From Methanosarcina flavescens (lineage in GTDB: Archaea > Halobacteriota > Methanosarcinia > Methanosarcinales > Methanosarcinaceae), in NCBI RefSeq assembly GCF_001304615.2, contig NZ_CP032683.1, positions 3,100,001 through 3,164,000 of the forward strand: a stretch of DNA of 64,000 bases. Reading direction: 5' to 3'. Shown here piece by piece: positions 8,049-52,808 of this stretch (positions within the stretch are counted from its first letter, which is position 1; every line of letters begins with the position of its first letter). The notes beneath the pieces are model-generated. The model was not told where the DNA came from and searched no databases. It was given only the letters and a program-made list of their open reading frames with translations. Both the position numbers and the translations under genes were made by a program.

Positions 8049-9254
8049 TTATTCGTCAAGCCCTTTTCTTCCGAAAATGTAATTCGCAACCCGAATGGCG
8101 TCTCTCTCTCCTGTTTCCTTTTCAGGGGAATCGCTCAGTTTTACAACAGGAATGCCGTCAATGCTGTGCAACTTTATCACCATGTTAAGAGGAGGGCTCT
8201 CCCGGAAGAAATCAGAGTTATTGGTAAGGCTTGTGCCAATCCCGAAACTGCAGTTAATTCTGCCTTCACAATATTTTTTAAGCAGGATTGCCATATCCGT
8301 ATTAAGGGCATCACTGAAAACGATTGACTTTTTCATTGGGTCAATACCCATTTTCCGATAGTGTTCTATCACAGCATCCACAAAGTCATAAGGGTCTCCA
8401 CTGTCGTGCCTGAAACCATCGTAAATTTTTGATAACCTCAGGTCCATGTCTTTAAAGAAAGCTTTTGAGCCAAATGTATCAGTTAATGCAATTCCCAGGT
8501 CACCGTTATAGACATCTATCCAGTTATCAAAAGCGAAACGGTTAGCATATCTTAACCCTACAAGCGCCGAAGTGCCCATAATCCACTCATGCCCGACTGT
8601 ACCAATGGGTTTAAGGTTATATTTTTTTGCAAAATAGACATTGCTTGTTCCCATAAGGGTTTTTATGCCAGAGAGAGTTTTCATCACAAGGTCATGAAGT
8701 TCGGAACTTCTTCGCCTGCGGGTTCCAAATTCTGAAAAGAAGCAGTTGTTTTCTTCAAGGACTTTTCCCATCTCAAGGATCTTGCTCTCATAAGCAGCTA
8801 GAACGGATTCGGAAGTGCAGCCATTTTCGGAATCCCCTTTCCATGCTTTTTCAATGGTCGCGAAATAGAGTTCTGAAACCACAGCCATAAGTACGATCTC
8901 CCAGAGAATTGTGCTGTGCCAGGGGCCTTTTATGCGGATATCGAGATCTTTTTCTTCGGTAAGGCAGACTTTTACCTCATATGGCTTGAAGCGGAAATTT
9001 TTAAGATATTCAAGGTACATGGGTTTCAGGTAAGGGCAGTGCTCGGAAAGCCAGTTGTATTCTTCTTCCGTTAGCGCTAACTTCGGGAGCTCTTCGTTTA
9101 TGACCCTCTTCAGTTCTTCTACGAATTCCGTAGAAAAGCGCTGGGTACCCCGGTTTGTAAACCGGTACTCGGCTTCTGCTTTAGGAAAAAGTTCAAGCAC
9201 TGCAAGCTGCATGGTGAATTTATAAAGGTCGTTATCGAGTATGGATTGTATCAC
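8049..9254 (-). CDS. pncB: Nicotinate phosphoribosyltransferase
   Basis: This cytoplasmic enzyme of NAD salvage joins nicotinate to PRPP, driven by ATP, giving nicotinate mononucleotide. The 401 residues match the bacterial PncB type in length. Recognisable are the start ([13 protein letters not shown]), the substrate region with YRFTNRG, 'FGTRRRRS' (about residues 175-182), '[13 protein letters not shown]' with the histidine that is phosphorylated in this family, and 'RHDSGDP' near residue 285 for PRPP binding. It stands as a single gene. An isochorismatase-fold protein that could feed it nicotinate lies 9 kb away, but the link is only inference. Confidence 0.95.
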
Positions 9255-18427: not shown

Positions 18428-18642
18428 AAATGATAAGTGTTTTTCTATTACTTTGCAATCCCGAATGATCTTCTCAGCGCCTGGCAGCTATAGAATTTAA
18501 AAGGCTAAGTCTAAGAAAGCTGTACTGTAGTTCCAAAATAGATTTATGTTATTCGTACAGTAATTTACAGATAGAGAAAAAAATACAGATAACATTGACA
18601 AGGGATGAGCCTGGCATGGGATCAGTAGAAAAAGGTGAAACT

Positions 18643-19224
18643 TTGAAAGCTCTGGTTATTATAGATATGACTAACGATTTTGTCTATGACACATACGATT
18701 ATGAAGGGACGTTATATGAGGGAAAACTTGTAGCCCCGATGGGAAAAGCGATCGTTGACAATATAGCCAAGCTGGTAATAAAAGTAGTAAAAGGGGGAAC
18801 AGTCAGCGTCTTCAGGCTTCCGAAAGATCATGCCAGCGCCTTTATGAATCCCGAACTCGAACTGAAAATTGCAGAGCTTGGAATCAATGAAGTCTTCATA
18901 ACAGGTCTGGTTGAGGAAGTCTGCATATACATTAACAGCATGGGTTTCCTTGAAAGGGGTTTTAAAACAAATATCGTAAAAGGGTGTACAGCACCTTTCA
19001 ATAAAGAAAAAGGGAGAGAAGCCTTCAGGGAACTTACGGAATGCGGTGCAAAAATGGTTGATGATATTCCGGACGACATAAAAGTTATACTGCTTCTCGA
19101 AGACGAGCACGACGAAAACTCTGAAGAAATAAAATCAGGAGCCTGGCCGCCCCATAATATGAAAGGGACACCAGGTGCCCTGACCGTGAAAACGATCAGG
19201 GACGCACTTGAGGAAAGGATATAA
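18643..19224 (+). CDS. Isochorismatase-fold hydrolase with relocated metal-site segment
   Basis: The product resembles nicotinamidase/isochorismatase enzymes. From TTG 18643 (AAGGTGA upstream; family members begin 'MKALVIIDM') it has 193 residues; an in-frame ATG at 18616 and TTG at 18595 are alternatives. The catalytic triad is present: Asp8 in IIDMTNDF, Lys61 in FRLPKDHASAF and Cys94 in TGLVEEVCIY. The block that binds metal in the family, D-x-H followed by WPPH..KGTPGA, normally sits between the Asp and the Lys. Here it is absent from that place and found at the C-terminus (LLEDEHDEN 151-159, WPPHNMKGTPGA 168-179). Substrate unknown; nicotinamide is one possibility. Confidence 0.8.
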   Translation: MKALVIIDMTNDFVYDTYDYEGTLYEGKLVAPMGKAIVDNIAKLVIKVVKGGTVSVFRLPKDHASAFMNPELELKIAELGINEVFITGLVEEVCIYINSMGFLERGFKTNIVKGCTAPFNKEKGREAFRELTECGAKMVDDIPDDIKVILLLEDEHDENSEEIKSGAWPPHNMKGTPGALTVKTIRDALEERI

Positions 19225-50311: not shown

Positions 50312-50799
50312 ATAAAACTCTGAAGTGTATTTGTTTTCAGTAAAGGCATTTTATGATCTTAGAATAGATACTCCAGATCTCTTGTGACGTCTACACTTGA
50401 TAAGCAGTGAATGCGATCCTCACAATTACTGCCCATTAGTGAATATCTTTATATGCGAGCAGTAGATTATAATTATTTAATAAGTAAGCTAAAACTGTGG
50501 GGTGGAAGCAAGCCTCAAGAGTTTTTGAAAGGAATACTTACTCAAGGTAGTAAGAACAATTCAAAAAGAGTGAAAAGTATATTTATATGTACGGGTAATC
50601 TTGAAAAAGAAAAATCAGATTTGAAATGCCTTTAAAGAAAGGCTGCAATACTATAAAATACCGGGTCTTATAAAGACTAAAAAAGCTAAAAATCTGGATA
50701 GTCAAGTATCAAATCAAACATTAGCTTAATAATTGCATGGAACTTCGAGCTGAGGTATTGATTTCGGAAATTTCATAACCGCAAGCGGTGGGGAATAAA
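50312..50799. other. Intergenic region with a doubtful short frame
   Basis: A 74-codon plus frame at 50411-50635 has no ribosome binding site and no recognisable product, though 'LKLWGGSKPQEFLKGILTQ' is protein-like. It may be a decayed insertion. AGCGGTGGGG just upstream of ATG 50800 is the ribosome binding site of the next gene. Confidence 0.35.
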
Positions 50800-51345
50800 A
50801 TGAAAATAAAAATAATTGTGCTACTTCTTATATTTGGCGTCGTTTTACTTTCAGGATGCGCAGAGGATGAGCAGCCCTCGCCAGATGAAAACGATACTCC
50901 TGTAGAAACTGAAACACCGGAGGAAAATGTAACTGCTGTAGAAACTGAAACACCGGAAGAAAATGTAACTGCTGTGGAAACTGAAACACCGGAAGAAAAT
51001 GTAACTGCTGTGGAAACTGAAACACCGGAAGAAAGCGAAACCGAGAAAACAGGCGGGGTCATAACTCCTGGGACAAAACCGACTACGTATACCATAAGAC
51101 TGGACAATAATAGGGCAAGCCGATCAAATCTTGAGATTAAGCAAGGAGATACCATTGCCTGGTTAAACTGGGAGGATAGCCCGAGAAGGACTTTTACACT
51201 GGTGAGTGAAGAAAATCTCTTTGATAACACAAATCTTGCGTACAAGCGTCCTTTTGCCTATACCTTTAATGAGACCGGAGAATACCACTTCAGTGTTGTC
51301 GGCCAGCCCAGAATGAATGTTACTGTCAGCGTGGTTGAACCCTAA
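50800..51345 (+). CDS. Lipoprotein with Glu/Thr repeat stalk and cupredoxin-like domain (paralogue 1)
   Basis: The start chosen is ATG 50800 (GGTGGGG upstream) rather than GTG 50788. By residue from ATG: lipoprotein signal with lipobox LLSGC (Cys about 20), a stalk made of three and a half 12-residue repeats ETETPEENVTAV, then a C-terminal beta-sandwich of about 95 residues with the look of a plastocyanin/cupredoxin ('LEIKQGDTIAWLNWEDSPR', 'FNETGEYHFSVVGQPRMNV'). The Cys and His ligands for type 1 copper are absent. It is surface-anchored, function unknown. A MITE begins five bases after its stop codon. A paralogue lies at 52113. Confidence 0.82.
   Translation: MKIKIIVLLLIFGVVLLSGCAEDEQPSPDENDTPVETETPEENVTAVETETPEENVTAVETETPEENVTAVETETPEESETEKTGGVITPGTKPTTYTIRLDNNRASRSNLEIKQGDTIAWLNWEDSPRRTFTLVSEENLFDNTNLAYKRPFAYTFNETGEYHFSVVGQPRMNVTVSVVEP
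50902..51033 (+). repeat. 36-bp tandem repeat inside the lipoprotein gene
   Basis: Three full units (50902-50937, 50938-50973, 50974-51009) and a 24-base partial unit are nearly identical, differing at single bases. Each codes for a 12-residue acidic stalk unit. Such near-identity suggests recent expansion and length variation among strains. Confidence 0.9.
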
Positions 51346-52112: not shown

Positions 52113-52808
52113 TTGGGAACAAACAAAATAATTTTACTCTTAATAGTTCTGTCAGTAGTAATCTCAGGCTGCCTGAGTTCGGAAGATGAGGAGAATGAAG
52201 AAGAAGATCTGGAGGCAGGCGGCAGTTCAGGAGGCTCACAAAGACCGAGACAAATGACAACACCCTTAGGAACACAGGAAGAGATGTGGACAGCGGAAGA
52301 GACGGAAACTGAAGGGGAAACGTGGATAGCGGAAGAGACGGAAACTGAAGGCGAAATGTGGACAGAGGAAGAAATAGGAACCCCAGTGGAGACGGTAGCA
52401 CAGGAAGAGCTTGAGACACAGACAGAAACAGAAACTCAGGAAGAACTGGGAACACCACAAGAGACAGCAATTCCGGGAGCCGGGGAAGAAGCTGAGGCAG
52501 GGCAAACGGAAGAAGGAAGACAGGCTGGAGATATACAGTCAGGCGGAGCAGTCCCAACAACACATCCTGTAAGGCTTAAGGACTATCTTATGATTCCCCC
52601 AAGACTGGAAATCAATACTGGAGAAACGGTTATATGGAGAAATTACCAGGAATCCAGTGTGCTTTTCCTTACCAGCAGGGAATATCTTTTTGAGGATCAA
52701 AGGCTTGTATACGGAGATACCTTTGAGTATACATTCGATGAACCGGGCAGCTATAATTTCAGTGTAAAAGGCTATCCCAAAATGCAGATGACCATTACTG
52801 TAAAATAA
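52113..52808 (+). CDS. Lipoprotein with Glu/Thr-rich stalk and cupredoxin-like domain (paralogue 2)
   Basis: It starts at TTG 52113 with GGGGGAGGCG just upstream. The product is 231 residues: lipoprotein signal (lipobox VISGC, Cys about 20), a very acidic stalk (about 25-140) with repeats of the type 'TAEETETEGE', then a C-terminal beta-sandwich like that of the protein at 50800 ('LEINTGETVIWRNYQES', 'FDEPGSYNFSVKGYPKMQM'). No Cys or His copper ligands are present. The folded domains are clearly related, while the stalks differ in sequence and length, so this is an older duplication with independent repeat growth. Confidence 0.82.
   Translation: MGTNKIILLLIVLSVVISGCLSSEDEENEEEDLEAGGSSGGSQRPRQMTTPLGTQEEMWTAEETETEGETWIAEETETEGEMWTEEEIGTPVETVAQEELETQTETETQEELGTPQETAIPGAGEEAEAGQTEEGRQAGDIQSGGAVPTTHPVRLKDYLMIPPRLEINTGETVIWRNYQESSVLFLTSREYLFEDQRLVYGDTFEYTFDEPGSYNFSVKGYPKMQMTITVK
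52284..52373 (+). repeat. 36-bp tandem repeat in the second lipoprotein gene
   Basis: Units at 52284-52319 and 52320-52355, plus a partial third unit, code for acidic 12-residue repeats. The unit length equals that of the repeat in the paralogue, but the sequence is different. Confidence 0.8.

Follow-up and report, generated by a model that had tools for sequence, protein, structure and literature searches.

Circular permutations of protein chains are common. Non-cyclic permutation is an established concept, although few cases are documented in nature; a possible one is AML1/CBF compared with riboflavin synthase, where a structural similarity over 42 residues involves a rearrangement of blocks beyond any rotation of the termini (PMC2096629). 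In the titles and abstracts of the open-licence literature, we found no description of a permuted isochorismatase or nicotinamidase. The nicotinamidase of S. pneumoniae (SpNic, PDB code 3o90) has the catalytic triad Asp9/Lys103/Cys136 and a Zn ion held by Asp53, His55, Glu64, and His71; more generally, the metal ligands of nicotinamidases follow a D-x-H...H pattern, to which SpNic and OiNIC add a glutamate as the fourth ligand (PMC6271260). In SpNic and in the S. mutans nicotinamidase (PDB code 3s2s), the segment carrying these ligands, hereafter the metal block, separates alpha1 from beta3. The usual order of the chain is A-B-C, where A carries the catalytic Asp, B the metal block, and C the catalytic Lys and Cys.

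The gene described here lies in a window of 64,000 nucleotides, the whole stretch of Methanosarcina flavescens DNA that was analysed. No other PF00857 gene was found in the host genome, a single contig of 3.28 Mb. The product of the gene matches PF00857 with an E-value of 5.5e-16 (59.6 bits, gathering cutoff 27). The relevant features of the window are the following.

18643-19224, + strand: putative permuted isochorismatase-fold (nicotinamidase-type) hydrolase, 193 aa, TTG start, about 30 full-length orthologs
18634-18638, + strand: GGTGA ribosome-binding-like site ahead of the TTG start, conserved in orthologs
18643-18798, + strand: block A, residues 1-52, beta1 with Asp8 (18664-18666) and F13
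within block A, + strand: extra beta-hairpin (residues 17-26) and alpha1 (residues 35-50), from the AF2 model, orthologs and HMM
18799-19074, + strand: block C, residues 53-144, directly after block A; beta3 with Lys61 (18823-18825), beta4, the nucleophile Cys94 (18922-18924), beta5 and beta6
19075-19191, + strand: block B, residues 145-183, relocated to the C-terminus; beta2 (148-154) and the metal block with D154 (19102-19104), H156 (19108-19110), E162 (19126-19128), W168, H171 (19153-19155) and GTPGA
19192-19221, + strand: C-terminal helical tail, residues 184-193, variable (dN/dS, AF2)
8049-9254, - strand: nicotinate phosphoribosyltransferase (NAPRT), TIGR01514, E = 7.4e-131

The reading frame is open along its full length. 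As the TTG codon and the GGTGA-like site upstream of it are both kept in 29 distinct orthologs, and as several of these lack an upstream in-frame ATG, the TTG at 18643 is likely the start codon. Such stability of a non-ATG start (18643-18645) across 29 distinct orthologs is unusual, and the conserved TTG may hold the expression of the gene low.

With regard to the order of the chain, the first-pass annotation of this DNA had placed D8, K61, and C94 ahead of D154-x-H156...W168-P-P-H171...G178-A179 and had proposed the relocation of an internal segment rather than a circular permutation. These positions were confirmed, and the comparisons of sequence support the relocation. Whereas PF00857 proteins present Asp, the metal segment, Lys, and Cys in this order, the metal segment comes last here. 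When aligned by phmmer with solved nicotinamidases, the pieces of the protein map in the order 2-39, 144-180, 55-133. Against an HMM built from 54 normal-order archaeal relatives, the native chain gives three out-of-order domains of 20.5, 43.6, and 13.5 bits (hmm 15-58 at residues 1-53, hmm 104-183 at residues 60-138, and hmm 47-94 at residues 136-185). When the C-terminal segment is placed in silico between residues ~51-58, restoring A-B-C, a single full-length domain (hmm 15-183) is obtained, with a score of up to 105.8 bits. The PF00857 score likewise rises from 59.6 to 74.4 bits and the best PDB match from 46.2 to 60.5 bits (3s2s), both becoming full-length. On this sequence evidence, the product of 18643-19224 is a non-cyclic permutation of a nicotinamidase-type protein, from ABC to ACB. 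A cut in which the strands preceding the two catalytic segments are swapped scores about equally well (~102 versus 105.8 bits); since 'SVFRLPKDHASAF' of the protein matches the beta3 sequence 'RVFWMDKRHYSAF' of SpNic, beta2 together with the metal block is preferred as the moved unit.

A plain circular permutation is rejected, A-C-B being no rotation of A-B-C. As the A-C-B order is kept in ~30 orthologs from independent assemblies, it is due neither to chance nor to an assembly artefact. A chance motif is also at odds with the gain upon re-ordering, from 43.6 bits for the best single match to 105.8 bits, which is specific to the segment and to the insertion point: when a 45-aa segment was relocated at random 2000 times and each product scored with the normal-order HMM, the median was 26.8 bits, and the best of these controls all shift essentially the same segment (starts ~135-146) to approximately the same insertion point (41-58). 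All three of these explanations are therefore left with a negligible probability.

The search for homologues with the same order, suggested by the first-pass annotation, yielded full-length orthologs in 26 of the 31 genomes of the genus and in four genomes of a sister genus in the same family, with 69-94% identity and the same A-C-B order in both genera. The residues D8, K61, C94, D154, H156, E162, W168, H171, G178, and A179 are invariant in the 29 aligned orthologs, none of which carries a second, normal metal block, whose presence had been named in advance as evidence against a relocation. The neighbouring genes UPF0280, oligoendopeptidase, MscS, DUF432, and CorA are common to much of the genus. 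In a sample of 393 genomes of the phylum, all other matches are local (residues ~45-141), and those inspected have the normal order; the D-x-H...P-x-H metal motif is absent from all the further PF00857 proteins inspected in the genus. Close matches in an exact-peptide scan, the method used outside the phylum, were Methanosarcina records. No relatives were found in viral contigs with a normal-order query, nor in plasmids with the permuted query. One genome, G007, contains a second, decaying copy (L043:3001-3264) covering residues 105-192 with in-frame stops, the intact copy being elsewhere in the same genome.

The normal-order archaeal relatives of the same phylum (e.g. L087-L099 and L121-L144) have three recognisable blocks in the order A-B-C and a TQDWH...WP[E/K]H motif, and their block C scores 37-49 bits against the permuted profile. 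In a tree of block C, the permuted proteins stand apart from them and form a single clade with 100/100 support, whose stem is very long (2.93 changes per site). Two proteins of genus g6 of the family, L165 and L166, are normal-order metal-type nicotinamidases resembling Firmicutes enzymes (DYVNDFVA...LFPPHCIEGTAGS), which were perhaps acquired horizontally.

Among solved structures, SpNic and 3s2s share most with the permuted protein: the Asp-Lys-Cys triad of the isochorismatase superfamily, the Lys in a V-F-x-[LM]-x-K-x-H-x-S-A-F context, and the D-x-H...P-P-H-N...G-T-x-G metal block, which in the permuted protein is at the C-terminus. B. subtilis PncA (5zn8) and the P. horikoshii nicotinamidase (1ilw), both of normal block order unlike the permuted protein, are the next best relatives by sequence and fold. 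By analogy with SpNic, D8, K61, and C94 would be the equivalents of its triad, and D154, H156, and H171 those of its Zn ligands, forming a putative metal site. E162 is likely the fourth ligand, although it aligns one to two residues off Glu64 of SpNic.

The structure prediction suggested earlier was performed with AF2. With the permuted sequences alone, the model was poor (pLDDT 59.9, pTM 0.64). It became confident (pLDDT 93.6, pTM 0.90, monomer) only once normal relatives were added to the alignment (A4), with their blocks A, B, and C entered as fragments in separate, unaltered rows. In this model, the mean pLDDT is 96 for the linker 141-150 and 84-93 for the metal-block region, and residues 55-61 (beta3) and 148-154 form strands. 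All the top Foldseek matches listed are members of the isochorismatase superfamily, of alpha/beta/alpha fold, the best being SpNic (rmsd 2.0 Å, TM 0.63, 179 columns). The TM formula gives ~138 superposed residues for this match, which is the size of blocks A and C together; the superposition would thus keep about these two blocks in place and skip block B of SpNic as a gap. In the SCOP c.33 fold, the order of the sheet is 3-2-1-4-5-6, and beta3 pairs only with beta2. As residues 55-61 are modelled as a strand, the only plausible partner for them would be strand 148-154, which we infer most plausibly fills the empty beta2 slot between beta1 and beta3 of its own chain. The model is consistent with a metal block that reaches the active site, whereas a block failing to approach it was the other outcome named in advance as a refutation. 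The fold and the metal site are well supported.

As for the mechanism, the chain runs through beta1-alpha1, then beta3 to beta6, and then beta2 and the metal block. The short linker 140-147 would let the C-terminal strand 148-154 turn back and occupy the vacant position between beta1 and beta3 in its own subunit, which would set Asp154, His156, and His171, and perhaps Glu162, beside Asp8, Lys61, and Cys94. The reaction would then follow that of SpNic: the metal would bind the ring nitrogen of the substrate, while Cys94, aided by Asp8 and Lys61, would attack the amide, giving a thioester and ammonia. Water would then free nicotinate, which NAPRT could take for NAD salvage. We consider it likely that this is a natural, fixed non-cyclic permutation in which an inner strand and the metal site have moved to the C-terminus and thread into the middle of their own sheet with activity kept, possibly after a stage as a domain-swapped dimer. 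The earlier suggestion that the protein may still be active gains indirect support from the invariant triad and metal ligands, the selection on block B, and the confident AF2 model, and the protein is very probably a functional metal-dependent cysteine hydrolase. On balance, we favour a metal-dependent, nicotinamidase-type cysteine amidohydrolase of permuted chain order that feeds NAPRT.

Three other explanations may be weighed against this one. If the rearrangement had broken the enzyme, the gene would be an inactive relic in the course of drifting, in line with its absence from five of the 31 genomes of the genus (G075, G083, G090, G091, and G098) and with the stop codons in the second copy of G007. 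The permuted gene, which these five genomes lack while keeping NAPRT, is thus dispensable in some lineages. Nevertheless, the ~30 intact orthologs, the conserved gene neighbourhood, the invariance of the catalytic and metal residues, and an overall dN/dS of 0.12 make a relic very improbable. The relocated block B is in fact the most constrained part of the protein, with a median dN/dS of 0.058 (about 0.06), compared with 0.19 for block A, 0.12 for block C, and 0.27 for the last ten residues; dS is near 1, so these ratios are approximate. The first-pass annotation had also raised the possibility that the metal segment is contributed in trans within a dimer. Only ~8 residues (140-147) join the end of beta6 to the start of beta2, near opposite edges of the sheet, which is tight and would favour a domain-swapped dimer or a higher oligomer. 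However, AF2 is confident in the monomer, the only form modelled, and in its linker, and with strand 148-154 placed in its own beta2 slot, donation in trans is not required. Monomer runs of AF2 close swapped proteins in cis too, so this confidence is not decisive; we regard donation in trans as unlikely.

A somewhat more serious, yet still doubtful, alternative is that the fold is as described but that the protein acts on another amide, in the manner of YcaC, carbamoylsarcosine amidase, or biuret hydrolase, or has a regulatory role. G88, the Gly ahead of the cis-peptide pair in nicotinamidases, is kept. The residues before Cys94 are [E/D]-E, instead of TD in SpNic and 3s2s and T-[D/N] in nicotinamidases, and a conserved T has given way to N98; a different substrate is therefore possible. 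The very long stem of the permuted clade and the weak, sub-threshold NCBIfam matches to PncA, BiuH, and YcaC alike would also be explained in this way. The nicotinamidase equivalog NF008623, which models one bacterial subgroup, gives 26.8 bits with the native and 27.5 bits with the re-ordered chain, for a cutoff of 174. In contrast, the metal site, F13, W168, and GTPGA are of the nicotinamidase type, and nicotinamidases are also the closest solved relatives, whether sequence or fold is compared. Nicotinamide remains the somewhat better candidate for the main substrate.

NAPRT lies ~9 kb upstream of the permuted gene on the other strand, so that a common operon is not supported. As NAPRT occurs in nearly all genomes of the genus, and equally in those without the permuted gene, a link between the two is plausible, although not specific. 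The host genome (G000) was searched for a sirtuin (PF02146) that could provide nicotinamide, and none was found; nicotinamide would therefore have to be supplied externally or by another source.

Unlike the AML1/CBF case, the homology of the permuted protein is clear from sequence and its active-site residues are kept. As there are also normal-order relatives in the phylum and ~30 orthologs in two genera that keep the shuffled order, it can be directly tested here whether catalysis survives when an inner strand and a metal site are provided by the distant end of a chain, be it in cis or in trans. The case also matters for annotation pipelines: profiles that depend on order detect only the middle third of the permuted protein.

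Elsewhere in the window, two small secreted or lipoprotein-like proteins (50788-51345 and 52113-52808) exhibit acidic Thr/Glu repeats (e.g. VETETPEENVTA, repeated). Their C-terminal domains are similar, and the two are possibly paralogs.
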